Assembly (NCBI GenBank): GCA_027493935.1
Contig: JAOSJV010000011.1
Location: 838,589 to 902,588 of the forward strand
DNA from: Burkholderiales bacterium
GTDB lineage: Bacteria; Pseudomonadota; Gammaproteobacteria; Burkholderiales; SG8-39
DNA length: 64,000 bases
Direction of reading: 5' to 3'
Under the pieces are notes generated by a model. The model was not told where the DNA came from, did not search any database, and worked only from the letters and a program-made list of their open reading frames with translations. Shown here piece by piece: positions 33,897-49,471 of this stretch (positions within the stretch are counted from its first letter, which is position 1; the number at the start of each line of letters is the position of its first letter). Both the position numbers and the translations under genes were made by a program.

Positions 33897-34601
33897 ATGC
33901 TCATCTCGTACTTCATCGTCTATCAGCGCGGCGCGCGCCTCGACCTGGTCGCGAGCGATGCCGACCGGGAGCGCTTCGCCGGGATCCTGCGCGCGACGCC
34001 GGGGCTCGCCAAGGCGCTCGTCTACACGCCCGACTCAGCGGCCGACCCTTACCTGAACGATGGCCTTCCGCCGCCGCTCGCGGCGCAGCTCTACTTCGGC
34101 GACGTCGCCGATCTGGAGGCGGCGCTCGCGCGCGACGGCCACCTGCAGGCGCTCGCGGCGCCCGGCGCGCTGCCGAGCCTCGCGGGCGCCGAGGTCGTGC
34201 AGCAGGCGATGCTCACGCGCACGTTCGCGGTGCCCGACCCGGTCTTTCGCACCGCGCCCGGCAGGCTCCCGTGCAGCTACCTCGTCGCCTATCCCGGACC
34301 GGCCGCGGACCTGAACGAGTGGCTCGCGTTCTACGTCACCCATCACCCGGTGCCGATGGCGAAGCTGCCCGGCATCCGCGAGATCGAGATCCTGACCCGC
34401 ATCGACTGGTGCGGCTTCCTGCCATGGCCGCGCGCGAACGACATGCTCCGGAACAAGGTGGTGTTCGACGCCGCCGCCGCGCTCGCCGCCGCGCTCGCCT
34501 CGCCGGTGCGCCACGAGATGCGGGCCGACTACAAGCGCTTTCCGCCGTTTGCAGGCGGCGTCAGCCACTTCCCGATGGCAACGCTCGCGGTGGTGCCGTA
34601 A
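33897..34601 (+). CDS. EthD-like / dimeric alpha-beta barrel protein
   Basis: A 234-residue protein starting at the ATG at 33897 ([18 protein letters not shown]). It seems to contain two ferredoxin-like repeats. The second has [20 protein letters not shown] followed by [18 protein letters not shown], the EthD/YCII-like arrangement in which a substrate lies near a conserved HxPxxxKLPG. The end reads [20 protein letters not shown]. Such proteins occur beside degradation pathways, but no such partner is adjacent, and the nearest downstream genes read the other way. Function not defined. Confidence 0.7.
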
Positions 34602-34620
34602 CGGCGTCTGCGTCGCCTAT

Positions 34621-34745
34621 CCCCTCCTTTCCAAGGAGGGGTGCCGCGCAGGACGCGCGGCGGGGTGGTTGCTGCGCTTGCAGTATTGCCCGACCCCCGC
34701 ACCACCCCGGCCGCTTCGCGGCCACCCTCCTCGGAGAGGAGGGGA
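34621..34745. repeat. Compound inverted repeat, probable dispersed intergenic element
   Basis: About 125 bp with three hairpins: CCCCTCCTTTCCAAGGAGGGG (21 bases, split here as the two arms CCCCTCCTT and AAGGAGGGG at 34621-34641), GGCCGC-TTC-GCGGCC at 34709-34723, and CCCTCCT..AGGAGGG at 34725-34743. The two ends are also rough complements of one another, with GGCGGGGTGGTT facing ACCACCCCGGCCGC. It lies in the 200-bp gap between the EthD-like gene and the convergent polyene cluster. The shape is that of a repeated intergenic element, which may also stop transcription from both sides. Confidence 0.55.
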
Positions 34746-34801
34746 CCGGAACACGCGGCGCGTCGCAGCGCGCCGAAGGACGGCCGGCCGCGGATGCCTC
34801 T

Positions 34802-35257
34802 TCAGCCGCCGGCTTGCGGCTTGTCGGCCGCCCGCAGCGCGACCGTCGCCCGCCCCTCGGCCACCTTGCGGGTTCCGGCGCTGACCTCGAACGCGTAGAC
34901 GAGGCCGCCGGCGCCCGCGGCGAGGCGCGTGGCGCGCACGAGCAGATCGTCCCCGAGCGCGTCGAGGGTGTCGACGTGCAGCCGCACGTCGCGCACGGCG
35001 ACCAGAAAGCCCGGCGCAGCGTCCGCGCCGTCGCGCGCGGCCGCCAGCCCGCCGTGCGCCGCCATCGCCTGCGCCGCGTACTCGATCGCGACGAGCGCCG
35101 GCAGCCGGCCGTTCACGCGCAGCGGGTGGTCCGCCGCGCGGTGGCTCGACGCGCGGCACGCGATCCTCTCGGGACTCGCAGACTCGATCGTATCGAGCAG
35201 GCACATCGTGCCACGGTGCGGCAGCAGGCGCGCGAGCGCCGGATCAGCGGGCGGCAT
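34802..35257 (-). CDS. Hotdog-fold 3-hydroxyacyl-ACP dehydratase-like protein of the polyene cluster
   Basis: A 151-residue protein, start ATG 35257 (MPPADPALARLLPHRGTM). It has the FabZ-like opening (LLPHRGTMCLLDTIESAS), then NGRLPALVAIEYAAQAMAAHGG, where the helix carries the catalytic Glu, and a beta sheet ending EGRATVALRAADK. In aryl polyene clusters a protein of this type dehydrates the growing chain together with a second dehydratase. It is the last gene of the leftward cluster and overlaps the preceding ketosynthase-like gene by 14 bp, which indicates translational coupling. Confidence 0.82.
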   Translation of the reverse strand: MPPADPALARLLPHRGTMCLLDTIESASPERIACRASSHRAADHPLRVNGRLPALVAIEYAAQAMAAHGGLAAARDGADAAPGFLVAVRDVRLHVDTLDALGDDLLVRATRLAAGAGGLVYAFEVSAGTRKVAEGRATVALRAADKPQAGG

Positions 35258-36053
35258 CGACCCGCACCCGCAGCGCGTCCCCGCCGTCGAGGGGTAGCAG
35301 TACCGTCGCGTCCTCGCGCCGCGCGATCGGCGCGAGCAGCGCGAGCGCGCGCAGCGTCGGGTTCGCGCACCTCAGCGCCTCGAGCTCCGGCGCGCGCATG
35401 GCGGTGACTGCGGTGGTCTCGTCGGCGCCGGGCGCGAGCCCGAGCGTGAGCCGGGCGAGCGAAGCGCCGCGGGGCTGCGGGCGCAGCACGAGCGCGAGGC
35501 CGGCACCGCAGTCGATCGGGTGCAGCGCGTACAGCGGCGCGGGCATCGGCAGGTCGTAGGCGACGAGCAGCATGTCGCGCTGCTCGATCGCCGCCTGCGT
35601 CGCCGCCTCCAGCAACCCGGCCGCGAACGCGCCGTCCAGCCCGATCACCGCGTTGCTCGGCGCTTGGCTCCGCACCGCGATGCTCCAGTAGCCGCCGGTC
35701 GCGTTCTGCACCGAGTTGTGGAACCGGGTGGGCGAGACCTCGGGCGCAGCGCCGGCGAGCGAAGAGCAGATGTGGTGCAAGTTCTCGCCGTCGCCGTCGG
35801 CCGAGGCGAAGACGCTCGCGAGCGCGCCGGCGTCGACGCCGGCGTGCGCGGCGGCCTCCTGCGCGACCGCGATCGCGAGGCGCACGACCTGGCCGGCGCG
35901 CCGCCGCTCGGCGGGCGGCAGGGCGTCGGGCATGGCATGCTCGAGCGGTCTCGGGTTGTAGCGCACGCCGCCGGCGAGCAGCGCGCGCAGCGCGTCCCAG
36001 CCCGCGAGCCCCGGGGCGGCGACGCCGATGCCGCAGAGGTGAACGCCGATCAC
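35244..36053 (-). CDS. Ketosynthase-like protein (chain-length-factor type, PF13723-like)
   Basis: A 269-residue, N-terminally ketosynthase-like protein from the ATG at 36053 (MIGVHLCGIGVAAPGLAG). It has FASADGDGENLHHICSSLAG, RFHNSVQNATGGYWSIAV and LVAYDLPMPAPLYALHP. The usual active-site Cys motif (TACSS) is absent, as in the short ketosynthase-like partners of aryl polyene systems that form heterodimers with a full ketosynthase. It overlaps the full ketosynthase gene by 4 bp at its start and the dehydratase gene at its end. It would help set chain length or stabilise the complex. Confidence 0.87.
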   Translation of the reverse strand: MIGVHLCGIGVAAPGLAGWDALRALLAGGVRYNPRPLEHAMPDALPPAERRRAGQVVRLAIAVAQEAAAHAGVDAGALASVFASADGDGENLHHICSSLAGAAPEVSPTRFHNSVQNATGGYWSIAVRSQAPSNAVIGLDGAFAAGLLEAATQAAIEQRDMLLVAYDLPMPAPLYALHPIDCGAGLALVLRPQPRGASLARLTLGLAPGADETTAVTAMRAPELEALRCANPTLRALALLAPIARREDATVLLPLDGGDALRVRVDAAR

Positions 36054-37237
36054 GGCATGCGCGCGAACACGAGGCTCGCGTTGTTACCGCCGAAACCGAG
36101 CGCGTTCACCAGCACTGCCGCGACCGGACGCTCGCGGGTCGCGAGCTGGACGGCGCGTCCGCACGCGGGATCGACGCTTGTCGTGTTGGCGGTGCCCGGG
36201 ACGAAGCCGTGCTCGATCGAGAGCGCCGCGGCGACGGCACCGAGGATGCCCGCGGCGCCCAGGGTGTGGCCGAGGTGGCCCTTGATCGAGGTCACCGGCA
36301 CGTCCGCCCCGATCACCCGCGCGATCGCACGCGCCTCGACCGCGTCGTTGTTGCGGGTCGCCGTGCCGTGGGCCTGCACGCAGTCGATGTCGCTTCCGCG
36401 CCGTCCGCAGCGTCCGAGCGCGGCGGCCATCGCGAGCGCGGCGCCGCGACCCTCGGGGTGCGGCGCCGACATGTGGTACGCATCGACGCTCTCGCCGTAG
36501 CCGACGAGCGCGACGCGGTGCGCGCGGCCCGGCGTGCGCTCGAGCAGCGCAAGACCCGCAGCCTCGCCGAGCGAGAGGCCGTCGCGCGCGGCGTCGAAAG
36601 GGCGGCACGGCGCGCTCGAGACGAGCTGCAGCGCACCGAACCCGTGCAGCGTCGTGCCACAGAGGCTGTCCACGCCGGCGACCACCGCGGCGTCGCACAG
36701 TCCGGCGGCGAGCCAGCGCGCGGCGGTCGCGAACACCTTCGCGCTCGACGAGCATGCGGTCGAGATCGCGAGCATCGGCCCGCGCAGCGCGCACGCCTGA
36801 CGCACGAACCCGGCGAGCGCCGCGAAGTTGTGCGCCGTCGCATAGCGCACTGTGGCGGGCAGCGCACCGGTCGCGGGATCGCGCGCGCGGTAGGCGAGCT
36901 CGGTCTCGAGGATGCCCGAGGTGCTGGTGCCGACGATCGTCGCGACGCGCGCGGCGCCGTGCCGCGTCCGCGCTGCCGCGACCGCGTCGGCGAAGCCGTC
37001 CTGCCCGAGCGCGAGCCACGCGAGCCGGTGGTTGCGGCAATCGTACTCGGCGAGATCGGCCGGCAGCCGCACCGCCTCGAGGCCGGCGACGCGGCCGATG
37101 AAGCCGCCGCTCGGCGCGTGCGCAAAATCGTTCGGCGCGAGCCCCGGGCGCATCTCGCGCAGGGCGTCGCAAGTGTCTGCCCGCCCGGCGCCGACGGCGC
37201 TCACTGCGGTGTACGCATTGACGAAGAGCGGCTGCAC
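36050..37237 (-). CDS. Beta-ketoacyl-ACP synthase (FabF type) of the polyene cluster
   Basis: About 395 residues if read from a GTG at 37237 (QPLFVNAYTAVSAVGAG). The Cys-His-His triad is complete: LAISTACSSSAKVFATA, VQAHGTATRNNDAVEA and IKGHLGHTLGAAG. The end NALGFGGNNASLVFARMP is standard. It would carry out decarboxylative extension of the ACP-bound chain with malonyl-ACP. No ATG is available. A TATACT box lies at 37263-37268 on the minus strand about 26 bases upstream, so an internal promoter is possible but has no clear -35. The downstream short ketosynthase-like gene overlaps by 4 bp, suggesting a heterodimer. Confidence 0.9.
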   Translation of the reverse strand: MQPLFVNAYTAVSAVGAGRADTCDALREMRPGLAPNDFAHAPSGGFIGRVAGLEAVRLPADLAEYDCRNHRLAWLALGQDGFADAVAAARTRHGAARVATIVGTSTSGILETELAYRARDPATGALPATVRYATAHNFAALAGFVRQACALRGPMLAISTACSSSAKVFATAARWLAAGLCDAAVVAGVDSLCGTTLHGFGALQLVSSAPCRPFDAARDGLSLGEAAGLALLERTPGRAHRVALVGYGESVDAYHMSAPHPEGRGAALAMAAALGRCGRRGSDIDCVQAHGTATRNNDAVEARAIARVIGADVPVTSIKGHLGHTLGAAGILGAVAAALSIEHGFVPGTANTTSVDPACGRAVQLATRERPVAAVLVNALGFGGNNASLVFARMP

Positions 37238-37305
37238 GGTGCGATGCGGAATGCTCGCTGCCAGTATAGCAGCGCGCCTCGCACCCGCGCGCCGCTGGCG
37301 GCGCG

Positions 37306-39663
37306 CTACCGCGGCGGCCGCGCCCAGGCCGCGGCGAACGCGAGCGGAGAGCGCTGCGCCGAGCGCGACAGTGCGCCCGATCGCCTGCAGGATCGCCGTG
37401 TCGGAGAGCGCGAGCGCACCGAACGCCGTCAGCGTGGTCGCCGCGGCGACGAGCACGGCGAAGGTGCTGCGCAGCTCTTCTGCGCTGCGGCCGCGGACGC
37501 CGGTCGTCGGAGGAGCGTCGAAGAGGCGGTTGAAGAACAGCGCGTAGTTCGTTCCGATTCCGATCACGAGCAGGAACGACACCAGGTGCAGCAGCGAGAG
37601 TCTCGTGCCGGCCGCGAGCAGCAGCGCCGCGGTCGCCGCGGTCGCCGCGAGCACCGGGAGCATCACATTCGCGGCGGCGCGGATGCCGCCGAGCCCGAGC
37701 CAGAGCACGGCGCCGATCACCGCGACGCCGGCCGCGGCGAGCGCGAGCGCCTGGTCGCGGAAGCCACCGATCATGCGCTCGGACTCGTGCTTGAGATCGA
37801 CCGCCTCCACCGCCCGATCGTCGAGCGCGGAAATCGCTCGCCCCAGCGCGTGCGGATCGGACACGCCGGAGAGCGGCGCGAGCCCGACCCAGCGGCCGCT
37901 TTGCTCGCGCAGGAGGGCGCGCAGCGCCGCACCCCACGCGGTGCCGGCGAGATCGTCCGGGGTGACGGGTGGCGCGGTGCGCGCCGCTGCGGCGTCGGCG
38001 AGGAATGGCGCGAACAGCCCGTCGCGGAACGGCAGTCCGGCGGACGCGCGCCCAAGCCGTGCGGCGAGGGTTTCCGGGTCGGGCAGCGCCGCGCGGCGCG
38101 CGCGCTGCGTCGCTTCGCTTGGCAGATACCGTGCCGGAGTATCGAAGCCGCGGATGACGCCCCGCGCGGCAAGGGCGGCGAGCGGGGCCTCGAGCGCCTC
38201 GAAGCGCGCAAGCACAGCGTCGCGCGTCGGTGCCCGCACCACCACGAGGTGGCGCACGTCCGGCGCGCCGAGCGCATCGCGCAGCGCCTGGTCGCGCGCC
38301 TTCGCCGCCTCCGGCACCGGGCTCAGGGCGGCGATGTCGTCCTCCCAGAGCGCCGCGTGCCGCAGGCCGATGAACGCGAGGGCAGCGGCGAGCGCGAGCG
38401 GCACGAGCGGCGCTGCGCGTCGGGCGAGGTGCGCGGCGGCGGCGAGCGCGCCGGCGAAAGGCACCCCGGCGGCGCGTCGGCCGCCCAGCGCTGCGGCGCG
38501 AGCGCCGGGAGCACGTGGCGCGTGACGAGCCCCGCGGCGAGCGCGCCGACGAACAGCAGCAGCCCGAGTTGCGCGAGGCCCGCGAAGCTCGAGGCGAGCA
38601 TGGCGAGGGAGCCGAACACGGTGGTGAGCACGGCCAGCCGCAGCGTCGGCCAGACGCGCTGCGCGGTTGCCGCCAGCGTCTCGCTCCTCGCACGGCTCGC
38701 GAGCAGATAGGTCGAGTAGTCGGCCGCCTCGCCGATCAGCGTCGCGCCGAACCCGAGCGTGATGCCGTGCACGATGTCGAAGCCCAGGCTCACCGCGCTG
38801 ATGCCTGCGAGCATGCCGGTCGCGACCGGCAGCACCCCGAAGCCGACCAGCGCCACGCGCCGGTAGGCGAGGAGCAGGATCAGGGCGACGCCGCCGCCGG
38901 CGAGCGCCGCGAGGCGCCAGGCGTCGGCCTCGATCGCGGCGCGCGCGGCAACCGCGAACACCGGCGGCCCGGACGTGACGATGCGCACCTGCGGTCCGGC
39001 GCGCGCTGCCGTGAACGCCGACTCGATCGCCGCGAGCGCCGCCGCCTGCGCGTCCAGATCGTAGCCTGGCGTACGGGTCTCGGCGGCGAGGAGCGCGCGG
39101 CCCCCGGCGGCGTCGAACCACACGCCCTCGCGCAGCCGGGGCGGGTGACGCTCGAGATGGCGCGCGAGCGCGGCGGTCGTCTCGCCGGTGGGATCGGCAG
39201 CGAGCGTCGAGCGCGCCAGCGGGCCGAGCGGCGAGGCGAGGCGTTCCAGCGTGCGCTCGAGCGCGGCGCGCAGCCCCTGCTCGGTGAAGCGCTCCGGCGT
39301 CACCGCCGGGCTGAGGACGTAGCGATGCGCGAAGAGCACGTCGCGGTCCTTGCGCGCGGCGGTGCTCTCGCCGTTCGCGACGTAGCCGAACGCGCCCGAG
39401 TCGCGCAGGCGCCGGGCGAGCGTGCGGCTGGAGGCCGCCAGCGCCGGCGCATCCGCTCCCTCCAGCGCGATCAGCACCAGGCGCGAGGCGACGCCGTCGC
39501 GCAGCTGTCCCATCAGCAGCTCCTGGGCGGGCGTCGCCGCGCGCGGCAGGAAGGCCGTGAGATCGGCGGTGACGCTCGTGCGGGCGAGCAGGATCCACAG
39601 GCAGGCCGCCACCGCCGCGAGCCAGATTGCGAGCGGCGCCACGCGAGCCGCCCGCGGGTGCAT
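37306..39663 (-). CDS. MMPL/RND-type exporter of the polyene cluster (two frameshifts)
   Basis: Restored length 785 residues, start ATG 39663 (MHPRAARVAPLAIWLAAV) overlapping the stop of the LolA-like gene (ATGA). Two MMPL halves each have a helix, a large periplasmic loop and five more helices. Marks are VSLGFDIVHGITLGFGATL, EAADYSTYLLASRARSET, FLLVIGIGTNYALFFNRLF and STFAVLVAAATTLTAFGAL. One base missing near 38465 and one extra near 37352 break the frame; repair gives the end LAFAAAWARPPR and a stop at 37306. It would move the finished lipid-like polyene out of the inner membrane using the proton gradient. Confidence 0.87.
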
Positions 39664-40316
39664 CAGCCGGACCTCCCGGTCGCGGATGCGGGAGCAGGCC
39701 CAGGTGCGGGCGGCGAAACGGGAACGAAGCGGGTCACGACCCGGTCCCCGCTCGTCTCCAGCGTCTCCATGCGCTCGATCCGGTCGCCGCTGCCCGAGAT
39801 GCGCACGCTCGTGACGTACTCCGCCAGCGCCGCATCGGCGGGCAGGAGCGCGATCGTCCAAGCCTCGCGTTGGCCCGCGAAGAGCACCTGGTAGTGCCGC
39901 CGCAATGCCGCCAGGTCGCCGGCGAGCGTCGCGCGGATGCTCTCGACGAACACGCGCAGCACCGGCAGACCATCGAGCGCGAACGTGCGCTCGTTGCCGT
40001 CGCGCTCGATGGTCACCGCGCCGCCGTCGATCGTGTAGCGCTCGGCGCGCGGTGTCAGCATGCGCCGCTCGAGGCGCGCCGGACGCCGGTAGCGCAGCTC
40101 GCCGGTCGCGACGAGCGGCTCGCGCAGCGCGTCCGAATGGCGCGTCTCCTCGAAGCGGACCGTCGCCGCCTCGCGCGCCGCAAGCTCGCGCATCAGCCGC
40201 TCGAGGTCGAACGCGGCCGCCGCGCGCGGCGCGCCGGGCGCGGCGAGGAGGGCGAGGCAGAGCGCGGCCGCCGCGCCGCCGCTCAGCGGCGCCCGCCGGC
40301 CTCGGGCGCCGCCCAT
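39663..40316 (-). CDS. LolA-like outer membrane lipid carrier protein
   Basis: A 217-residue protein from the ATG at 40316. Its basic start and hydrophobic stretch (AAALCLALLAAPGAPRAAAA) are a signal peptide, so it is periplasmic. The rest is a LolA/LolB-type fold: LMRELAAREAATVRFEETRH, ELRYRRPARLERRMLTPRAE, then FALDGLPVLRVFVESIRATL. In aryl polyene clusters a LolA-like protein is thought to carry the product across the periplasm. It overlaps the acyltransferase gene at its start by 34 bp and the exporter gene at its end by 3 bp, so all three are coupled. Confidence 0.85.
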   Translation of the reverse strand: MGGARGRRAPLSGGAAAALCLALLAAPGAPRAAAAFDLERLMRELAAREAATVRFEETRHSDALREPLVATGELRYRRPARLERRMLTPRAERYTIDGGAVTIERDGNERTFALDGLPVLRVFVESIRATLAGDLAALRRHYQVLFAGQREAWTIALLPADAALAEYVTSVRISGSGDRIERMETLETSGDRVVTRFVPVSPPAPGPAPASATGRSG

Positions 40317-41221
40317 ACGTCGAAGAAGTTGAACCAGTTGTACGGCGCGAGCCGCGCGTAGTGCTCCAGGCGCGCGGCATATGCGCGGGCGAGCGCAGCG
40401 ATCGCCGCGTCGCGTCCGGCACGCGGCAGCGCGCCCGGCGCGCGAAACAGCTCGAAGTGGATGTCGTAGCGGCGTCCACCGCGGTAGAGCCCGAAGCCGA
40501 GCACGACCGGCGCGCCGAGCACCGCCACGAGCGCGAACGGGCCTTCGGGCAGCCACATCGTGCCGCCGAGGAACGGACACGCGATCGGCCGGTCGCCCGG
40601 GCGCAGCCGGTCGGCGAGCAATCCGACGAGCGCGCCGCCGTCGAGGCGCGCCTTCGCGCGCAGCAGCGACTCGGGCTCGCCGAGGTTGATGACGTCGGCG
40701 GCGAGCGCCGGATTGACCGCGGCGAACACCTGCGTCATCTTCCGCGCGTTGGCGTTGTCCATCAGCATCGCGACCGGCCAGCGCGGACCCGCGAGCGCCG
40801 CCGCGCGCAGCACCTCGAAGCTTCCCAGGTGCGCGCCGATGAGCAGGCATCCGGCGCCACCCGCCATCGCGCGCTCCACCGCCTCCGCGCCGTGCAGCCG
40901 CACATCGAAGTGCCCATAGCGGCCACCGAGGAAATAGACGCGGTCGAGCAGGGTCGCGGCAAACGTGGAGTAATGGCGGTAGACGTCGGCGAAGCCTGCG
41001 CGCCGGCCGAGCACGCGCGCGAGGTAGGCGCGCGAGGCGCGCCGCGGCGCGACCGAGAAGGCGACGAAGTAGGCGACGATGGCCGGCAGCAGCGCCCGAC
41101 CGGCGCCGCGGCCGAGCCGTCGCGTGATCCACACGATGAGACGGATGAGCGCCGGGCTGCCGCGCTCGCGCGCCGCAAGCCACTGCGGCCGGCTGGCGGG
41201 CTCAATCCCGGTGGTGGTCAT
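40283..41221 (-). CDS. LpxL/HtrB-like acyltransferase of the polyene cluster
   Basis: A 312-residue protein, start ATG 41221 (MTTTGIEPASRPQWLAAR). A membrane-interacting helix (RALLPAIVAYFVAFSV) precedes the lysophospholipid/lauroyl acyltransferase domain: GCLLIGAHLGSFEVLRAA contains a histidine in the HxxxxE-like motif, VGLLADRLRPGDRPIACPFL and MWLPEGPFALVAVLGAPVVL follow. In this setting it probably joins the ACP-bound polyene to a membrane anchor. It overlaps the downstream LolA-like gene and the upstream dehydratase gene. WFNFFDVW near the end is typical of this group. Confidence 0.87.
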   Translation of the reverse strand: MTTTGIEPASRPQWLAARERGSPALIRLIVWITRRLGRGAGRALLPAIVAYFVAFSVAPRRASRAYLARVLGRRAGFADVYRHYSTFAATLLDRVYFLGGRYGHFDVRLHGAEAVERAMAGGAGCLLIGAHLGSFEVLRAAALAGPRWPVAMLMDNANARKMTQVFAAVNPALAADVINLGEPESLLRAKARLDGGALVGLLADRLRPGDRPIACPFLGGTMWLPEGPFALVAVLGAPVVLGFGLYRGGRRYDIHFELFRAPGALPRAGRDAAIAALARAYAARLEHYARLAPYNWFNFFDVWAAPEAGGRR

Positions 41222-41546
41222 CGGCCGCGAAGCGAAGCACGCCGCGCGCGACGGACCGCGCGCCGCTCGTGCACTCGAAGCGCGTCTCGCCGGCACTCGT
41301 ATGCGCGAAAACGATCGTGCACGGCTCGCCGGGGACGAGCGGCGCGAGAAACTTCGCCTGGGGCACGCCCGTCAGCCGCAACGGGCCGCGGCGCGCCGCG
41401 AGCGCCGCCTGGACGTGGGCGAGGACGAGCACGCCGGGCACCACCGGATCCCCGGGGAAATGGCCGGGCAGCGCTGGATGGTCGGGTGCGATCGAGAACG
41501 TGATGCGGTCCGCGCGCATCGTCGGCTCCCTGTCGTGTGCCGCCAT
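41202..41546 (-). CDS. Hotdog dehydratase (FabA/FabZ-like) of the polyene cluster
   Basis: A 114-residue protein if it starts at ATG 41546 (MAAHDREPTMRADRITFS); the ATG at 41519 (MRADRITF) would give 105. The key stretch HPALPGHFPGDPVVPGVLVL is the FabZ-like active site with a catalytic His in GHFPG. LTGVPQAKFLAPLVPGEPCT is the second conserved part. It would dehydrate 3-hydroxyacyl-ACP during polyene growth. It begins 9 bp after the stop of the ligase gene and overlaps the acyltransferase start. Confidence 0.85.
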   Translation of the reverse strand: MAAHDREPTMRADRITFSIAPDHPALPGHFPGDPVVPGVLVLAHVQAALAARRGPLRLTGVPQAKFLAPLVPGEPCTIVFAHTSAGETRFECTSGARSVARGVLRFAADDHHRD

Positions 41547-41555
41547 CGCGCGCCC

Positions 41556-42893
41556 TCAGCGCGCCGCCTCGGCCTCGAGCAGGCGCAGCGCCTCGAGCGG
41601 CAGCTTGCCGGTCGAGGCGCGCGGCAGCGCGGCGACCTTCACGAGCGGGCGCGGCAGGAACGCCGGGTCGATCGCCCGGCGCAGCGCATCGATGATCTCG
41701 CCCTCGGTCAGGGCCGGTGCGACCACGAACGCCATCAGCCGCGCGACCTGGCCGTCAGAGGCGCCCTGCGGCACGTGGAACACGCCATCCTGCACGCCGG
41801 GGATCTCGAGCAGCTTGTGGTTGAGGTCGCCGAGCGAGGCGCGCTTGCCGGCGATGTTCAGCATGTCGCGCGCGCGCCCTCGAGCAGGAACTCCGTGTCG
41901 TTCGCCGGATGCAGCAGGTCGGAGGTGCGGACGCGGCCGTGCACGTGGCCGCCGGTGAACGCCCAGCCGTGCCCGTCGGGCGCGAGGCGGATGCCCGACA
42001 TCGTGCGCCACGTCGGCGTCGCCGTGGTGCGGCGGGTGGCGACCATTCCAGCCTCGCTGCAGCCGTAGATCTCGATCACGCGGGTCGCGAAGCGGCGCTC
42101 GGCCGCGGCCGCAAGCGCCGGCGCGAGCGGTGCCGCGGCCGACACGATCAACGCAAAGCGCGGGCAGCGCGGTCTCGCCCTCGACGCAGGCGCGCACGTG
42201 GATCGGCGTCGTCACCAGCACGCGCGGCGCGGGCAGCGCCGCGAGCCCCGCGCGCACGTCGGCGGCGAGCAGCGGCCGGGCCGGATGCATGGCGCCGCCG
42301 AGCAGCAGCGGCAGCAGCACGGTGGACTCGAGGCCGTACATGTGCTGCGGAGGCACGGTGCCGAGGAGGTTGAACGCGCTCGGCGCGAGCCCGAGCGCCT
42401 CGCCCTCGGCGCGCGCGCCGGCGGCGAGCTTGCCCCAGCGCTTGAGGTTCGGCCGCGGCTCGCCCGTGCTGCCCGAGGTGAACACGACCGCCGCCGGGTG
42501 ATCTGCGGCGATGGCCGGGACGTGCGCGGGGCCGCGTGCATGCGGCGGGACGTCCGGATAATCCACGACCGGCGCGTCGAGCGGCGGGAGCGGGGCGTCG
42601 GTGACCGCGCCGCACCCTGCGTACGCGGCGCCGACCTGCACCAGCGCCCGCTCGGTGCGGTTCGGCGGCAGCAGGGTCGTCTTTCCCGCGAGGAGCGTCG
42701 CGGCGAGCACCACCGCGAACCGGTAGCGGTCCTCGCAGAGGTTCATCACGTGCGCGCCGGCCGGCAGCGCCGCCGCCAAGTGCTCGACCTCTGCGAGGAA
42801 CCGCGCGACGCTCACCGGTGCGCCGTCGCGCCAGGCGACCGGCCGGCCCAGCGCGTCGTGCCCGACCAGGGGAAGCGTCTGCACGGTCGCCAT
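41556..42893 (-). CDS. AMP-dependent acyl-ACP/CoA synthetase of the polyene cluster (two compensating frameshifts)
   Basis: A 445-residue adenylating enzyme, start ATG 42893 (MATVQTLPLVGHDALGRP). The P-loop-like A3 core is VVFTSGSTGEPRPNLKRWGK. The central part reads in another frame between about 42162 and 41878: IVSAAAPLAPALAAAAERRF and VIEIYGCSEAGMVATRR (A5). The C-terminal domain returns to the first frame with MLNIAGKRASLGDLNHKLLE and ASTGKLPLEALRL (A10 lysine). A one-base excess in 42162-42164 and a missing base near 41878 cancel out. It would activate the aryl starter acid and load it on the ACP. Confidence 0.85.
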   Translation of the reverse strand: MATVQTLPLVGHDALGRPVAWRDGAPVSVARFLAEVEHLAAALPAGAHVMNLCEDRYRFAVVLAATLLAGKTTLLPPNRTERALVQVGAAYAGCGAVTDAPLPPLDAPVVDYPDVPPHARGPAHVPAIAADHPAAVVFTSGSTGEPRPNLKRWGKLAAGARAEGEALGLAPSAFNLLGTVPPQHMYGLESTVLLPLLLGGAMHPARPLLAADVRAGLAALPAPRVLVTTPIHVRACVEGETALPALCVDRVGRGTARAGACGRGRAPLRDPRDRDLRLQRGWNGRHPPHHGDADVAHDVGHPPRARRARLGVHRRPRARPRPHLRPAASGERHGVPARGRARDMLNIAGKRASLGDLNHKLLEIPGVQDGVFHVPQGASDGQVARLMAFVVAPALTEGEIIDALRRAIDPAFLPRPLVKVAALPRASTGKLPLEALRLLEAEAAR

Positions 42894-42901
42894 GGCGTGG
42901 T

Positions 42902-43516
42902 TCAGCGAAAGAGCTCGGGGGCGCGCCGCGCGAGGCAGGCCGCGACTGCGAGCGGATGGGTGTGCGCGTACTGCGGGAAGCGGCGCACCCGATAAGGGTA
43001 CTCCGCGAAGAACAATGCGGCCAGCACCGCGTAGCTCAGCACGTTGCTGAAGAACGACCAGGCGACCGTCGAGGCGAAGCGCGCGAGCAGCACCGACGCT
43101 ACGGCCATGGCGAGCGGCAGCAGCGTCCAGACCCAGGTGAGCACGCGGGTGTAGCGCACGAGCTCGTGCGGCAAGTGTTCGCCGTGATCGATCATGCGCG
43201 CCATGCGCTCGACGAGCGGCACGCGCCCGCGGCGCAGGGTGCGGCCGAACACCCATGCGACCGCGAGATAGGCTGCGGCCGGCCAGACGAACGCGAGCGG
43301 CACGACCGCGCGCGCGTCGAGCAGGGCGAGCCCCGCGATGCCGAGCGCGGCGAGCGCGAGCGCGCCGGGCGGAAACCGGTGCGCGCCGCCGTCGAGCGCG
43401 GCGGCGGCTGCCGCGATCGCTGCGAACCCCGCGAGCAGCGCCCAGCTCTCCCAGACGATCGCGAGGTGCAGCACGAGCGGACCCGCCCCGAGCACCGCGG
43501 CGAGCGGCAGCTTCAT
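42902..43516 (-). CDS. Polytopic membrane protein (COG4648-like) of the polyene cluster
   Basis: A 204-residue protein from the ATG at 43516 (MKLPLAAVLGAGPLVLHL) with about five or six hydrophobic helices, including LALAALGIAGLALLDARAVV, VWTLLPLAMAVASVLLARFA and SFFSNVLSYAVLAALFFAEY. The last part, EYPYRVRRFPQYAHTHPL, is typical of the COG4648-type membrane proteins that accompany aryl polyene clusters. The role is not established; assistance to product handling at the membrane is an inference. It follows the ACP gene by 28 bp and the ligase gene starts 8 bp later. Confidence 0.8.
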   Translation of the reverse strand: MKLPLAAVLGAGPLVLHLAIVWESWALLAGFAAIAAAAAALDGGAHRFPPGALALAALGIAGLALLDARAVVPLAFVWPAAAYLAVAWVFGRTLRRGRVPLVERMARMIDHGEHLPHELVRYTRVLTWVWTLLPLAMAVASVLLARFASTVAWSFFSNVLSYAVLAALFFAEYPYRVRRFPQYAHTHPLAVAACLARRAPELFR

Positions 43517-43544
43517 GACCGGCGCGTCCCGGGCGCGCGCGCGC

Positions 43545-43814
43545 TCATCGGGCGCGCTGGCGCTCCACGTGCGCGGCGAGGCTGCGCAGCGACGCGAAGA
43601 CGCGCACGTTCGCCTCGTCGTCGGCGCGCAGCTCGACGCCGTAGCGCTTCGCGATCGCGAGCGAGATCTCGAGCATGTCGATCGAATCGAGCCCGAGCCC
43701 CTCGCCGTAGAGCGGCGACTCGGGGTCGACGTTCCCGGCTGCGACGTCGAGGTTCAGCACCTCGACCATCAGCGCGGAGAGCTCGGCTTCGAACGTCGTC
43801 TGCTGCGTGGTCAT
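43545..43814 (-). CDS. Acyl carrier protein of the polyene cluster
   Basis: An 89-residue ACP, start ATG 43814 (MTTQQTTFEAELSALMVE). The phosphopantetheine site is GLGLDSIDMLEISLAIAK, with Ser in DSIDM. The acidic helix before it (DVAAGNVDPESPLYGEG) and the C-terminal HVERQR complete a four-helix ACP. It would carry the growing chain for the ketosynthases and dehydratases around it. Most aryl polyene clusters have two ACP genes; only one is seen here. Confidence 0.92.
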   Translation of the reverse strand: MTTQQTTFEAELSALMVEVLNLDVAAGNVDPESPLYGEGLGLDSIDMLEISLAIAKRYGVELRADDEANVRVFASLRSLAAHVERQRAR

Positions 43815-43846
43815 GCGTGTATCGTTCGGTCTCGCGGCGCAGGTCG

Positions 43847-43862
43847 GGATATTAGTGTATCC
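43847..43862. promoter_or_regulatory. Small palindrome upstream of the ACP gene
   Basis: GGATA at 43847-43851 and its complement TATCC at 43858-43862 flank six bases in the 82-bp gap between the halogenase-like gene and the ACP gene. The surrounding bases are less GC-rich than the genes, as expected for a promoter or operator of the ACP-to-dehydratase part of the cluster. No -35/-10 pair is convincing. Confidence 0.25.
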
Positions 43863-43896
43863 GCGGTGCTGCGCGGCAGCGAGCGGCGCTGCGTCA

Positions 43897-45204
43897 CTAG
43901 GCGGTGGGGTGCACGTTCTCGCGCCGCCTGAGCGCCGCGCGCGCGCTGCGCCGTGGCTCGCTCAGGCTCTTCGCATAGTAGATCAGCTGGAACAGGCGGA
44001 TGCGCCAGCGAACGCCGTTCGCGCGGTAAATGTCACCGGCGAGGAACGAGACGATGCCGTCGACCACCCGCAGCACGTTGCGCGGGTGCATCAGGAGGTC
44101 GCGCATCGCCGGCGCGCTCATGCGGTAGATGAACCAGGTGAACATGCGCAGGCCGCGGCGCATGCGGCGCTCGTAGGCGCGGGCAAAGCGCGCCGCCGCT
44201 GCCGGAGCGCGCAGGCTGCGGTCCACCGTCCGTGCCGCCTCGAACGCGCCCGTCATGGCGAGATAGACGCCCGACGAGAACACCGGATCGACGAATGCGA
44301 ACGCGTCGCCGACCATCAGGTAGCCCGGTCCGTGGGCGCGCCGCGTCTGGTAGCTGTAGTTGCCCGTCGCGGTGGCCGGGGCGATCCGGCGCGCCTGCGC
44401 GAGGCGCGCGGCGAGCGGCGGGCACAGCGCGATCGTCGCGTCGAGAAACGCGTCGAGCGAGTCGCGCCGGGTCTTCAGGTAGGCCGGCCAGCAGACCGCG
44501 CCGACGCTGGTGATGCCGCGGCTGAGCGGAATGAACCAGAACCAGCCATGCTCGAACCAGTAGATCGCGATGTTGCCGGCGTCGCGGCCGGCGGTGCGGT
44601 CGGCGTTCTCGTAGTGGCCGAAGATCGCAGCGCTCGCGTGGCGGCGGTTGGCCTCGCGCATGCCGAGCCGGGTCGCGAGCAGCGCGTCGCGGCCGGTGGC
44701 GTCCACCAGGAACCGGGCGCGCCATGCGAGGTCCCCTTCCGGCCCCGTGCTGTGCACGGTGACCGTGCCGCCGGGCGCGCTCGGCAGGTCGACCTGCACG
44801 GCGCGCGTCTCCTCGAATACTGCAACGCCTCTGCGCTCGGCGTTGCGGAGAAGGACTTGGTCGAGCTCGGCGCGGTGCACCTGGAAGGCCGTCGGCTCGG
44901 CGGCGTCGAGCGCGCCGGCGAAGTAGAACGTCTGCGCGGTGCCGTGCTCGCGCGAGTGGAACTCGGCGCCGGCCTTCACTACGCCGATCGCACGGACCTC
45001 GTCGAGCACGCCGAGGCGCGCGAACAGCGGATTGTTGCGCGGCAGCAGCGACTCGCCGATGTGGAAGCGCGGGTGGCGGTCCTTGTCGAGCAACGCCACC
45101 CGCCACCCTTTCTCGGCAAGCAGCACGCCCGTCGTCGTGCCAGCGGGACCGCCGCCGATCACGATCACGTCGTAGGCGCGTGCGGAGTTCGCGGGGCCGG
45201 TCAT
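43897..45204 (-). CDS. Flavin-dependent halogenase-like FAD oxidoreductase
   Basis: A 435-residue flavoprotein from the ATG at 45204 (MTGPANSARAYDVIVIGG). The FAD loop is IVIGGGPAGTTTGVLLAEKG, followed by FHIGESLLPRNNPLFARLG. Two halogenase signatures are present: GWFWFIPLSRG fits the WxWxIP motif, and FAFVDPVFSSGVYLAM fits the Fx.Px.Sx.G motif described for flavin-dependent halogenases. Homologues in aryl polyene and xanthomonadin-type clusters are thought to halogenate the aryl head group. An epoxidase or dehydrogenase role is the alternative. It lies between the glycosyltransferase and ACP genes, same strand, 22 bp after the former. Confidence 0.82.
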   Translation of the reverse strand: MTGPANSARAYDVIVIGGGPAGTTTGVLLAEKGWRVALLDKDRHPRFHIGESLLPRNNPLFARLGVLDEVRAIGVVKAGAEFHSREHGTAQTFYFAGALDAAEPTAFQVHRAELDQVLLRNAERRGVAVFEETRAVQVDLPSAPGGTVTVHSTGPEGDLAWRARFLVDATGRDALLATRLGMREANRRHASAAIFGHYENADRTAGRDAGNIAIYWFEHGWFWFIPLSRGITSVGAVCWPAYLKTRRDSLDAFLDATIALCPPLAARLAQARRIAPATATGNYSYQTRRAHGPGYLMVGDAFAFVDPVFSSGVYLAMTGAFEAARTVDRSLRAPAAAARFARAYERRMRRGLRMFTWFIYRMSAPAMRDLLMHPRNVLRVVDGIVSFLAGDIYRANGVRWRIRLFQLIYYAKSLSEPRRSARAALRRRENVHPTA

Positions 45205-45226
45205 CGCGCTGCGTCTCGGTGCGCAA

Positions 45227-45994
45227 TTATAGCCGCGGCCGGGCGCGCAACCGCCGGGCCGCGAGCTGCGGCAGCCGCGCGAGCGCGCCCACGAGGAGCC
45301 GGCTGTGCATCCAGACCAGCAGCGCGTTGTCGCGCAGGTAGTCGAAGTGCGACACGCCGCCCTCCTCGGGCCGGAAGTAGCGCACGGCGGTCGCGATCCG
45401 CACCGGCCTCACCCCGGTCCACGCGAGCCGCACCGCCGCCTCGGGATCGAAATCGAAGCCGCGCATCCACCGGCCGCGCTCCATCACGCGCAGAAGCGGG
45501 ACGATCGGATAGAGCCGGAAGCCGAACAGCGAGTCGCCGATGCCGGCCCAGAGCGTCGCCAGATCGGCGAAGAAATTCGAGATGCGGCGGCCGTGCACGC
45601 GCGCCCTCGGCGCGCTGGCGTCGAAGACCGGCTGGCCGAGGATCATCGCATCCGGCGCGGCGCGCGAGGCGGCCATCAGGTCCGCGATGCGCTCGGCCGG
45701 GTGCTGGCCGTCGGCGTCCATGGTGAGCGCGTGCGTGAACCCGGCCGCGGCCGCGGCCCGCAGCCCGTGCAGCACCGCCGCACCCTTGCCGCCGTTGCGC
45801 TCGAGGCGCAGCACGCGCAGGCCCGGATCGTCCGCGGCGAGCGCCGCGACCGGCGCGTCGCTGCCGTCGGTGCTGCCGTCGATCACGACCCACACGGGGG
45901 ACCACCGCGCGCGCGCGGCGCGCACCGTCTCGACGAGCTTCGCGCCGGTGTTGTAGCTCGGGATGAGGACGAGGTGGGTCGCCGAGGTGTGCAT
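45227..45994 (-). CDS. Family 2 glycosyltransferase
   Basis: A 255-residue GT-A enzyme from the ATG at 45994 (MHTSATHLVLIPSYNTGA). LIPSYNTGAKLVETVRAARA starts the nucleotide-sugar fold, NGGKGAAVLHGLRAAAA follows and HALTMDADGQHPAERIADLM holds the DxD-like DADG metal motif. It belongs to the dolichol-phosphate mannosyltransferase-like group. No membrane helix is visible. In the polyene cluster it could glycosylate the head group or the lipid anchor. Confidence 0.88.
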   Translation of the reverse strand: MHTSATHLVLIPSYNTGAKLVETVRAARARWSPVWVVIDGSTDGSDAPVAALAADDPGLRVLRLERNGGKGAAVLHGLRAAAAAGFTHALTMDADGQHPAERIADLMAASRAAPDAMILGQPVFDASAPRARVHGRRISNFFADLATLWAGIGDSLFGFRLYPIVPLLRVMERGRWMRGFDFDPEAAVRLAWTGVRPVRIATAVRYFRPEEGGVSHFDYLRDNALLVWMHSRLLVGALARLPQLAARRLRARPRL

Positions 45995-46022
45995 CCGGCC
46001 GGCCGCTGCGCGTACCTGCGCC

Positions 46023-46789
46023 TCAGCCGGCGCCCGGCTTGACCGCGCGGTACTCGGAGAGAAAGCCGAGCTCGGCCGACCGGCGGACGTCGCCGAAGCC
46101 GGCGTGCTCGAGCGTGCCGAGCACGCGCTCCGGGGGCACGCACGCCTCGATCGTGTCCCAGTAGTAGCGCATCAGCATCGGCATGTCCGGCGAGCGCGCC
46201 ACCAGCCGCGCGAGCAGCGGAACGACGCCGCGCAGGTAGCCTTTGAGCAGCGCGCGGCCGATCCGCCCGCGCGGCGGCGTGATCTCCAGGATCAGCACGA
46301 TACCGCCCGGCCGCAGCACGCGCAGGAACTCGCCCGAGGCCGCCGCGAGATCCGTCACGTGCCGCAGCGCGTAGCCCATGCTCAGGAAATCGGCGGAGGC
46401 GTCGGGCAGCGGGATGCGCTCGGCGCTGCCCTCGAGCCGGCGCACGCCGGCGGGCAGCACCGCGTTCGCGAGCATCGCGGAGCTCGGGTCGACGGCGACG
46501 ACTGCTGCGGGCGCGCCGACGAGCGCCGCCGCCTCGCGCGCGACGAGCCCGGTGCCCGCGCCGACGTCGACGACGCGCATGCCCGGGACGAGCCCGGCGC
46601 GCACGAGCGCTGCGCGCCGGTAGTACGCACCGGTGCCGAACGCCATGCAGCGCTCCACGCGCGTGTAGTCGCCGGCGGTGCGGTCGAAGAGGGCGCGCAC
46701 CCACGGACGGCGCTCGGCCTCGCTCGCGAAATAGCGCACGAGCGGGGGTGCGGCGCATGAACGATGTCGGACGGCGGCTCGCGGGTCAT
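46023..46789 (-). CDS. Class I SAM-dependent methyltransferase, UbiE-like (frameshifted near start)
   Basis: With one extra C in the five-C run (46746-46750) the protein is 255 residues starting at ATG 46789 (MTREPPSDIVHAPHP then PLVRYFASEAERRPW). Unrepaired, the open frame starts at a GTG at 46739. The SAM fold is clear: GMRVVDVGAGTGLVAREAAA, VVAVDPSSAMLANAVLP and DFLSMGYALRHVTDLAAA. The ending EACVPPERVLGTLEHAGFGD is UbiE-like. It would methylate the polyene head group. It is the first gene of the leftward cluster. Confidence 0.83.
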
Positions 46790-46866: not shown

Positions 46867-47703
46867 TCAATCCTCGCTTTCGACGCGCGTCTTCGACTCG
46901 GCGAACACGTAGGCGACGCCGATGCCCGCGAGCAGCGCGCCGCGCCGGCGCACGAGCGGACTCGCCTCGAAGGTTGCGCCGTTCAGCGCGTGCGCGCGCA
47001 CGAAGCCGCCGACCCACACCGACGCGAACCGCTTGCTCAGGCTGACCGTGAACTGCACGCCGCCGTAGCCGCCCTCGGCGGCGTACGCCGGCCGCGTCGC
47101 CGTCGCGAACGCCGGATCCACCTGGTAGTAGTAGCGGTGGTAGCGCGCGTCGGCGAACACCGGTCCGGCCTGCAGCCCGAGCCGCCAGCCGCCGCCCGGG
47201 CCGGTGTCGCGCGCAAACCAGTCGAGCACCGGGTTGAACACGACGCCGGTGTAGCGGGCGCTGGGGAAGTCGATCGCGTACGCCGCGCGCAGCGGCAACT
47301 GGAGCGAGAGCTCGCGCGAGCGTGCGTCGTCTTGCCACAGCGTAAGCTTCAGCACCGGGCCCAGCTCGAGGGTCGGGTCGAGGTCCGGCATGCCCTGGCG
47401 CGCTTCGTTGCGGCTGCTCGGCGCCGGCTGCGAAGCGTTCAGCGACACGTCGAGCTCGGCGCGGCCGCGCTGCAGGAGCAGCAGCGCGGCGAGCCCGCGC
47501 CGGTCGTCCACCCGCAAGAGCTCGCCGCGGTAGCGTACGTAGGGCAGCGGATAGAGATAGCCGCGCGACTGATCCGACCCGCGATAGTCGGGCAGGCGCA
47601 GCGCGGCTGCTCCCGCACCGAGCTCCCAGAGCGGGCGCTCGGCCGCCACCGCGCCGCTCGCGGCGAGGCACGCCGCGCCGATCGCAGCCGCGGCGATCGC
47701 CAT
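46867..47703 (-). CDS. MipA/OmpV-family outer membrane protein
   Basis: A 278-residue protein from the ATG at 47703 with a signal peptide (MAIAAAAIGAACLAASGAVA). The mature part begins ERPLWELGAGAAALRLPDYR and SDQSRGYLYPLPYVRYRGEL, the diagnostic start of MipA/OmpV beta-barrels. Repeated aromatic strands follow (YTGVVFNPVLDWFARD, GGVQFTVSLSKRFASVW). It ends AYVFAESKTRVESED. The family forms outer-membrane barrels, some interacting with murein enzymes. It reads leftward, just upstream of the polyene cluster, and is divergent from the deacetylase gene. Confidence 0.88.
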   Translation of the reverse strand: MAIAAAAIGAACLAASGAVAAERPLWELGAGAAALRLPDYRGSDQSRGYLYPLPYVRYRGELLRVDDRRGLAALLLLQRGRAELDVSLNASQPAPSSRNEARQGMPDLDPTLELGPVLKLTLWQDDARSRELSLQLPLRAAYAIDFPSARYTGVVFNPVLDWFARDTGPGGGWRLGLQAGPVFADARYHRYYYQVDPAFATATRPAYAAEGGYGGVQFTVSLSKRFASVWVGGFVRAHALNGATFEASPLVRRRGALLAGIGVAYVFAESKTRVESED

Positions 47704-47857: not shown

Positions 47858-48709
47858 ATGGCCCTCACCGAGCCCAGCATCGCCGCGCGCGCGCATCCGG
47901 CGCTGCGCGTCTGGTGGCCGACGCCGGCGCTCGGCATCACGGCGCTCGCGCACGCCGGCGGCGTGATCGCGCTCGCGCACTCGCCGCACGCTTGGCCGTG
48001 GGTTGCCGGCGCGCTCGTGCTCAACCACGCGGCCCTGGCCGCAGCGGCGTTCGCGCCGAGGAGCCGGCTGCTCGGGCCGAACCTGGTCCGGCTGCCCGCT
48101 GCCGCAGCCGCGCGCCGCGAGATCGCGCTCACGTTCGACGACGGGCCGCACCCGGAGTTCACGCCGCGCGTGCTCGACCTGCTCGATCGCGTGGCGGCGA
48201 AGGCGAGCTTCTTTCTGGTGGGCGAGCGCGCGCGCCGGCACGCACGGCTCGCGCGCGAGATCGTCGCACGCGGTCACGCGGTGGAGAACCACAGTCATCG
48301 GCACTCGCCGTGCTTCGCCTGCGGCGGCGTCGCGCGCATGCGGCGCGAGATCGCCGCCGCCCAGGCCGCGATCGCCGATGCGGCCGGCGTCGCGCCGGCG
48401 TACTTCCGTGCGCCGTTCGGCATCCGCAGCCCCCTGCTCGAGCCTGCGCTCGCCGCATGCGGCTTGCGCCACGTCGCCTGGACGCGGCGCGGCTACGACA
48501 CGGTCGGGCGCGATGCCGCGGCGGTGCTGGCGCGGCTGACGCGCCGCCTCGAAGCGGGCGACGTGCTGTTGCTGCACGATGCCCCCGGCGCGCGCGCGGG
48601 AAGCCCGCATGCGCTCGCCGTGCTGCCCGCGGTCCTCGAGCGCATCGCCGCCGAAGGGCTGCGGCCGGTGACGCTGCGCGCGGCGTGCGCCGACGCACGC
48701 AGCGCCTGA
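47858..48709 (+). CDS. Polysaccharide deacetylase (NodB domain) with N-terminal membrane helices
   Basis: A 283-residue protein from the ATG at 47858 (MALTEPSIAARAHPALRV). Residues about 25-75 form two hydrophobic helices (PALGITALAHAGGVIALA, WPWVAGALVLNHAALAAAAF). The NodB domain follows: IALTFDDGPHPEFTPRVLD with the DD pair, VENHSHRHSPCFAC with the HxxxH metal motif, AYFRAPFGIRSPLLEP and VLLLHDAPG. It would remove N-acetyl or other acyl groups, probably from a membrane-linked glycan. It starts a rightward pair with a methyltransferase beside the polyene cluster; a role in its glycolipid is a guess. Confidence 0.87.
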   Translation: MALTEPSIAARAHPALRVWWPTPALGITALAHAGGVIALAHSPHAWPWVAGALVLNHAALAAAAFAPRSRLLGPNLVRLPAAAAARREIALTFDDGPHPEFTPRVLDLLDRVAAKASFFLVGERARRHARLAREIVARGHAVENHSHRHSPCFACGGVARMRREIAAAQAAIADAAGVAPAYFRAPFGIRSPLLEPALAACGLRHVAWTRRGYDTVGRDAAAVLARLTRRLEAGDVLLLHDAPGARAGSPHALAVLPAVLERIAAEGLRPVTLRAACADARSA

Positions 48710-48750
48710 GCGCGGCGGCGTCGGCCGGGTTCGGGGCCGCGCGGGGACGC

Positions 48751-49471
48751 GTGCGAGCCGACGCAGCAGAGCACGCCGCCTGGCACGCGATCGTCGCTGC
48801 GGCGGCGCGCGACTACCGCCCCGCCGGCCGTTACGCCGCGGGATACGCGCGCGGCAAACTCGCGCACGACCCGGTCTTCGCGGCGATCCTCGCGCGGGGC
48901 CTGATTCCCGACGGGGGCGCGCCTGGCCGACCTTGGCTGCGGCCAGGGGCTTCTCGGCGCGCTCCTGTTCGCCGCGCGCGACTGCCACGCGCGCGGTGTG
49001 TGGCCGTCCGCTTGGCCGGCGCCGGCGCAGCTCGCGTCGGTCTGGGGCGTCGATCTCGATCCGCGGCGGGTGCGCGCCGGGCGCCTCGCGCTCGGCGCAC
49101 GGGCCGCGCTCGAAATCGGCGACCTGCGCACCGCGGCGATCCCGCCGAGCGACGCGATCGTCCTGCTCGACGTGCTCCACTACGTGCCGCCGGAGGCGCA
49201 GCGCGCGGTGCTCGCGCGGAGCCGCCGGGCGCTCTCCGATGGCGGCGTCCTGCTGTTGCGGGTCGCCGACGCCGGTGCCGGCATGCGCTTCCGGCTCACC
49301 TCGCTTGCCGATCGGATCGCGACCGTCGCGCGCGGCGGCCCGCCGCGGCTGTACTCGCGGGCACTGCCGGCGTGGATCGCGCTCCTTACCGAGCTCGGCT
49401 TTGGCGACGTGCGCAGCGCACCGATGAGCGCGTGCACGCCCTTCGCGAACGTGCTGCTCGTCGCCCGCTGA
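48751..49471 (+). CDS. Class I SAM-dependent methyltransferase (frameshifted)
   Basis: Restored length 239 residues from a GTG at 48751 (RADAAEHAAWHAIVAAAA). One extra base near 48915 breaks the frame in the first SAM motif; removing it gives GLIPDGG then RLADLGCGQGLLGALLFAA and a length divisible by three. The rest is normal: VWGVDLDPRRVRAGRLALGA, AIVLLDVLHYVPPEAQRAVL and GGVLLLRVADAG. It lies 41 bp after the deacetylase gene. In polyene clusters of this type an extra small methyltransferase is common. The substrate is unknown. Confidence 0.8.

Follow-up and report, generated by a model that had tools for sequence, protein, structure and literature searches.

A xanthomonadin/arcuflavin-type aryl polyene cluster without its dedicated ketoreductase in a Burkholderiales bacterium

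Aryl polyenes are yellow membrane pigments and belong to the most common pigments of bacteria. For the aryl polyene-type cluster described here, which lies in DNA from a Burkholderiales bacterium, the nearest published gene set that we found is arc of Azoarcus sp. BH72 (PMC3949708); the likeness is one of gene kinds, drawn without sequence comparison. That paper lists a halogenase, XanB2, MipA, a glycosyltransferase, a ketoreductase, a dehydratase, an N-terminal ketosynthase, a ketosynthase, a methyltransferase, a deacetylase, an exporter, LolA, acyltransferases, another dehydratase, a ligase, and one acyl carrier protein (ACP). The Azoarcus pathway is divided between two loci, for which Table 1 of the same paper lists no thioesterase, one ACP, one full ketosynthase and one N-terminal-domain ketosynthase. 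The cluster for the xanthomonadin-like yellow pigment of Lysobacter contains a ketosynthase/ORF16 pair, an ACP, a dehydratase pair, an acyltransferase and LolA-type genes together with ORF13, a ketoreductase that is essential there, and ORF5, which is of the XanB2 type; no halogenase appears in the passages available (PMC3691225). The aryl polyene clusters of E. coli and Acinetobacter are listed with a second ACP, a thioesterase, a third ketosynthase, a DUF3261 protein and the ketoreductase ApeQ (PMC8253772, PMC8041823). The sources differ on one point: xanthomonadin clusters are described as having no second ACP (PMC8253772), whereas every aryl polyene cluster is elsewhere said to have two tandem ACPs (PMC8041823).

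How does the Burkholderiales locus compare? It lies in a 64,000-nucleotide stretch (the window; G000:C11:838589-902588) of a 5.19-Mb genome in 17 contigs, rated 86.6% complete. Genomes are labelled G and loci L; the genus is represented by G000-G003, with congener loci L017, L018 and L019. Open reading frames and family searches place 13 minus-strand genes at 34802-46739, where an earlier note made from the sequence alone had put thirteen leftward genes, and its label of an aryl polyene-type cluster is right, with the xanthomonadin/arcuflavin type as the correct comparison. The order of all 13 genes is identical in L017 and L018, and L019 agrees in the portion left by a contig end; because this order is retained, the arrangement is not due to chance. 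The cluster is thus real and conserved. A ketosynthase stands beside an N-terminal-domain ketosynthase partner; a dedicated ACP, an AMP ligase and two dehydratases are present (the ApeP-like dehydratase does not reach its cut-off and three pieces make up the ligase, both being conserved in place); and a LolA-like carrier, an MMPL exporter, an acyltransferase and a glycosyltransferase complete the set (the exporter frame is broken here and the acyltransferase is below cut-off). All of these have arc counterparts in kind, as do a MipA protein, a deacetylase, a methyltransferase and a gene annotated in Azoarcus as a halogenase. Unlike arc, the window holds a single locus, a few accessory arc genes have no counterpart in it, and the genome lacks an arcH-family ketoreductase and XanB2 (arcB). 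The ketosynthase pair, ACP, dehydratases, acyltransferase and LolA-type genes are shared with Lysobacter, and the general design and a number of parts alike in kind with E. coli and Acinetobacter, of whose second ACP, thioesterase, third ketosynthase, DUF3261 protein and ApeQ none is seen in the window cluster.

Reading of the open frames, in the cluster and beside it, found neither a ketoreductase nor a thioesterase, and neither a second ACP nor a third ketosynthase. The earlier note had taken these absences together, as genes lying elsewhere in the genome or as signs of a reduced or rearranged variant. Only that of the ketoreductase sets the locus apart: since the other three genes are not listed for the arc loci either, their absence is ordinary for the type, while the absence of the ketoreductase is real and is the reason for filing the locus as a variant of its class. 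The genome-wide search covered the dedicated ketoreductase and not thioesterases or ACPs; G000 has 12 ketosynthase-domain matches, several of them partial. The suggestion that missing genes simply lie outside the window fails for the ketoreductase and XanB2 because genome-wide searches for both were negative.

The kind of cluster is already known, and only the repeated lack of the dedicated ketoreductase (ArcH/ORF13/ApeQ type) stands out. This enzyme belongs to a distinctive family of short-chain dehydrogenases/reductases (SDRs), a member of which sits after ApeP in 10 of 20 relative loci. The PDB entries that match the family best, 4iiu, 7czc and 7caw, bear no more specific name than 3-oxoacyl-ACP reductase; we take 4iiu to be the E. 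coli aryl polyene-cluster enzyme, and 7czc and 7caw to be Acinetobacter ApeQ. Searched with an 8-row profile, dedicated members score 387-444 bits (G016, G005, G092 and G082), or 315 bits in the contig-cut G085, and a divergent reductase type in G034 and G049 scores 256 bits. In the four genus genomes, no dedicated ketoreductase was found genome-wide: the best scores, 213-222 bits, come from SDR genes that group with acetoacetyl-CoA reductases. A gene just outside the window was considered and rejected, as the place after ApeP is occupied by other genes in all four genomes and the genome-wide search is negative.

The absence extends beyond the genus. In a survey of 399 genomes from the order, a xanthomonadin-type ketosynthase is encoded in 75, and 64 of these also have the dedicated ketoreductase. 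Both thresholds were set after the scores were seen to be bimodal (at least 507 versus at most 377 bits for the ketosynthase; at least 315 bits in the count versus at most 268 for the ketoreductase); G425 and G432, with partial ketosynthases and with the ketoreductase, were not counted among the 75, and a 292-bit fragment with stops in G407, which has no such ketosynthase, was left out of the ketoreductase list. The 11 genomes without the enzyme are G000, G001 and G002; G081, G208 and G303, which are one-contig genomes of genus g47; G095, G245 and G270; G365; and G436. G365 has an ApeQ-like gene elsewhere in its genome (249 bits), and G436 has one inside the cluster (254-256 bits). Natural clusters that lack the ketoreductase occur in several species of each of two genera, and in other genera in one species only. 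Searching the 20-kb stretches of seven of these loci (L020, L030 and L151-L155) with the profile used above returned no SDR. At the level of loci, a reductase of at least 250 bits is present in 36 of 58, one of 202-207 bits in two and none in 20, counted over the stretch available (contig ends truncate several of these 20) and, for the named loci among them, not over the whole genome.

In a tree built from the ketosynthase, its partner and ApeP of 27 loci, presence and absence of the ketoreductase require at least six changes, or five if the gene elsewhere in G365 is counted as present, or four without G365 and G270. The change count alone cannot separate loss from gain; the g47 clade joins a ketoreductase-bearing locus with full support. 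A plasmid search gave ketosynthase matches all below 60% identity, which were not used. Among the literature matches listed, titles and the openings of abstracts yielded no paper on clusters without a ketoreductase, and the available passages of PMC12144888 do not concern them; with most subscription papers outside coverage, this is weak evidence of novelty. In one g47 genome, two aroG-like DAHP synthase genes, identified by eye, lie upstream of the reductase-less cluster (L030:4352-6542).

We consider it likely that this xanthomonadin/arcuflavin-type cluster works without a cluster-encoded ketoreductase. In the pathway that we propose from its gene content, each step of which is predicted, the ligase would charge the ACP with a hydroxybenzoyl-type starter; the ketosynthase, together with its chain-length-factor-like partner, would elongate this starter by malonyl units; a reductase whose gene lies elsewhere would reduce each β-keto group; and the two hotdog proteins would dehydrate the products to a conjugated polyene. 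A methyltransferase and the halogenase-like protein may modify the ring, perhaps in its ACP-bound state; the acyltransferase and the family 2 glycosyltransferase (GT2) may link a lipid or glycolipid to the chain, and transport to the outer membrane would fall to MMPL and LolA. In favor of this reading, both dehydratases, which need β-hydroxy substrates, are kept, and the cluster is kept in all four genus members (in part in L019, at a contig end). The pN/pS ratio is 0.26-0.66 for 11 intact cluster genes compared with up to three congeners; these sequence comparisons show constraint that supports function without proving it.

Several observations weigh against this reading. The constraint is somewhat weaker than on three neighboring genes (pN/pS 0.13-0.37; 0.30-0.38 for the deacetylase). 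In Lysobacter, deletion of the ketoreductase abolished the pigment (PMC3691225), and Acinetobacter AbFabG used in place of ApeQ gave almost no aryl polyene in vitro and did not bind the ACP (PMC8041823); a substitute reductase is for these reasons not obvious. The lid of ApeQ is three residues shorter than that of FabG (PMC8041823). In our alignment, the lid-spanning segment has 43-44 residues in all nine pigment-type reductases (seven of the dedicated family and two divergent ApeQ-like ones), but at least 46 in each of the 12 G000 SDR sequences aligned, out of 17 SDR matches, so that none has the short ApeQ-type lid. No gene for making the starter (XanB2, UbiC or tyrosine ammonia-lyase) was found either: the XanB2-type chorismatase is absent from the four genus genomes and from five other family members, while four of five order members outside the family have it; UbiC is absent from all eight family members tested; and an aromatic ammonia-lyase was rejected as a source, as the PF00221 match of G000 is a histidine ammonia-lyase and G001 has none. 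A side observation concerns 4-hydroxybenzoate, which is needed for ubiquinone too: neither XanB2 (lacking in 9/9) nor UbiC (lacking in 8/8) was found in family f1.

If FabG cannot replace ApeQ in Acinetobacter, which enzyme could act here? A different or adapted reductase has probably been recruited, and it would act in trans. A further reading, held tentatively and with less than even confidence, is that the aryl polyene pathway has turned more than once to a reductase from outside the cluster and that in this genus an enzyme with a lid of FabG length, for example the FabG-like protein of locus L001 or an acetoacetyl-CoA-reductase paralogue, became the ketoreductase, contrary to the Acinetobacter result. 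In a tree of 40 SDRs, no genus member falls within the dedicated-reductase clade; the L001 SDR is its neighbor, with support 89/79. L001 (G000:C1:1298000-1316000) resembles a second fatty acid synthase locus: it encodes a FabL-type enoyl reductase (over cut-off), the FabG-like SDR, an LpxL-like acyltransferase and ketosynthase domains, and genes of ACP, hotdog and AcpS type are also seen by eye, the first two types without an NCBIfam match. That the reductase of this locus (near 1303452 on C1) performs the keto reduction is an unlikely special case of the pathway proposed above with an outside reductase. Besides its place in the tree, it is favored by the FabL-type gene, which within the family occurs in all four genus members and in only two other genomes of 98; those two (G019 and G040, genus g17), however, show no xanthomonadin-type ketosynthase, the lid of the L001 SDR is of FabG length, and the best two SDR matches of the reductase-less G081 and G095 group with acetoacetyl-CoA reductases or FabG and not with the L001 SDR. 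The idea that L001 is the second half of the pathway was dropped because the FabL-type gene occurs without such a ketosynthase; we retain L001 only as a candidate source of the reductase. Separately, the FabL-type gene is confined to two genera (6/98 family genomes).

That the cluster is a decaying relic with no product is unlikely: neither the dedicated ketoreductase nor any known starter-forming gene was found, pN/pS is higher than in the three neighbors, and the reductase-less cluster of G270 has only a short MMPL match, but the 13 genes stand in order in both congeners with complete loci, the ketosynthase catalytic residues and the halogenase motifs are intact, and the frame breaks described below are not common to the congeners. 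It is less probable still that an ordinary dedicated gene exists elsewhere and seems missing from an incomplete or error-ridden assembly. The completeness rating of G000, the frame breaks in two cluster genes and the Azoarcus pathway spread over two loci would fit this; against it, the other three genus genomes, rated 95, 100 and 100% complete, are likewise without the ketoreductase, as are the three single-contig g47 genomes, and the place that holds the enzyme in half of the relative loci holds other genes in all four genus genomes. Finally, without ketoreduction in the cluster the chain could differ, and the product could be an unrelated lipid and not a polyene. We regard this as very improbable, since the ketosynthase pair, ACP, ligase, two dehydratases, LolA and MMPL match characterized pigment clusters in kind; in such clusters, disruption of the ketosynthase or the ligase removes the pigment (PMC3949708, PMC3691225). 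Set beside the published results, by which the dedicated ketoreductase is essential in Lysobacter and not replaceable by FabG in vitro in Acinetobacter, reductase-less clusters offer a direct test of how carrier-protein recognition limits cross-talk between fatty acid and aryl polyene synthesis; their existence also suggests that an annotation as incomplete does not have to mean an inactive cluster.

The flavin-dependent halogenase-like protein (43897-45204, minus strand; ArcA type) is as the earlier note described it, by motifs and PDB matches. The latter include, from the best down, 3e1t (named 'Halogenase'; E 1e-58), 8zop, 5buk, ChlB4, CmlS and PltA; 3e1t is presumably CndH, and 5buk Bmp2. 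The motifs of flavin-dependent halogenases (GxGxxG, W-x-W-x-I-P and the catalytic Lys) are present, the last two in all 16 cluster homologues, the window included, drawn from 64 loci at no less than 40% identity and 85% coverage. The protein stays below every NCBIfam cut-off (CmlS, 190 bits versus 900; the monooxygenase model QhpG, 161 versus 240), the models being narrow. A number of these halogenases modify substrates while they are bound to a carrier protein, which the position of the gene beside the ACP gene fits. The halogenated product proposed earlier is an unsafe step and is not established, because Azoarcus has arcA, annotated as a halogenase, yet its arcuflavin is described as non-brominated (PMC3949708).

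Matches over curated Pfam or NCBIfam cut-offs identify the ketosynthase, ACP, partner ketosynthase, LolA, FabZ-like dehydratase, glycosyltransferase, methyltransferase and halogenase-like protein (Pfam for the last six). The identities of the ApeP-like dehydratase, the acyltransferase and the membrane protein rest mainly on conserved position, because family matches are below cut-off for the first two and lacking for the third. All 13 genes are on the minus strand. The ApeP-like hotdog dehydratase (34802-35257) has a Pfam E value of 0.001 (19 bits versus a cut-off of 27) and 65-84% identity in three congeners. It is followed by the ketosynthase-N-terminal protein, a putative chain-length-factor-like partner of the ArcJ/Lysobacter ORF16 type (35244-36053; Ketoacyl-synt_2, 89 bits), and the ArcK-type ketosynthase (36050-37237; PRK09185, 468 bits versus 407), in which the Cys-His-Lys/His residues are present. 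The two genes adjoin in 19 of 20 relative loci, the exception, L033, being cut by a contig end. A conserved Gln is reported for all Lysobacter ORF16 homologues (PMC3691225); it was not confirmed for the partner, no Gln column reaching 93% in a 55-row alignment. Next come the MMPL exporter (37306-39663), one piece of which matches Pfam MMPL at 25.5 bits (cut-off 20.5) and the other, just under it, at 20.0; the LolA-like carrier (39663-40316; LolA_3, 87 bits); the LpxL-like acyltransferase of the ArcR type (40283-41221; Lip_A_acyltrans E 7e-4, below cut-off; 64-77% identity in two congeners); and the FabZ/ApeI-like dehydratase (41202-41546; FabA domain, 26 bits versus 23). The putative AMP ligase for the aryl starter (41556-42893; ArcT type) has ligase matches to three pieces, none over a curated cut-off. 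The membrane protein at the ApeG/ArcU position (42902-43516) is 57-66% identical in two congeners; the ACP (43545-43814) scores 123 bits with PRK09184 (cut-off 70). Beyond the halogenase-like gene lie the ArcE-type GT2 glycosyltransferase (45227-45994; Glycos_transf_2, 76 bits) and a UbiE-like methyltransferase (46023-46739; Ubie_methyltran, 82 bits). The best-matching named relative locus is L071 (Burkholderiales bacterium isolate PRO12), with 86% identity in the ketosynthase.

Three genes sit just beyond the interval of the earlier note (34802-46789): an ArcC-type MipA/OmpV-family outer membrane protein (46867-47700, minus strand; MipA, 142 bits), with homologues in several other relatives' loci and unmatched in those of the three congeners; a divergent ArcN-type polysaccharide deacetylase (47858-48709, plus strand; NodB/PdaB-type matches under curated cut-offs; 70-76% identity in two congeners); and a second methyltransferase with an approximate start (~48710-49471, plus strand; Methyltransf_12, 30.2 bits versus 30). 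The reading frame of the ligase changes twice (near 42150 and near 41870), as does that of MMPL (near 38460 and near 37345); both genes are unbroken in L017 and L018, and each of the four breaks is a single-base difference absent from the congeners covering that place. These comparisons make sequencing or assembly errors the probable cause. A fifth break probably lies near 48900 in the second methyltransferase, whose N-terminal part is apparently in another frame; by eye, the L018 homologue is whole.

On the other side of the cluster, flavin monooxygenase and lipoprotein genes lie between an EthD-like gene and ApeP in G002 and G003 and are missing from the window (34601-34802 versus L019:7092-9407). 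This small lipoprotein, whose gene stands beside 7 of 11 reductase-less clusters, was tried as a functional substitute for the ketoreductase and dropped, because G000 lacks it and some loci or genomes with the reductase have it. Its gene is at L019:8946-9338 and also occurs in L017, L018, L020, L030, L154 and L155.

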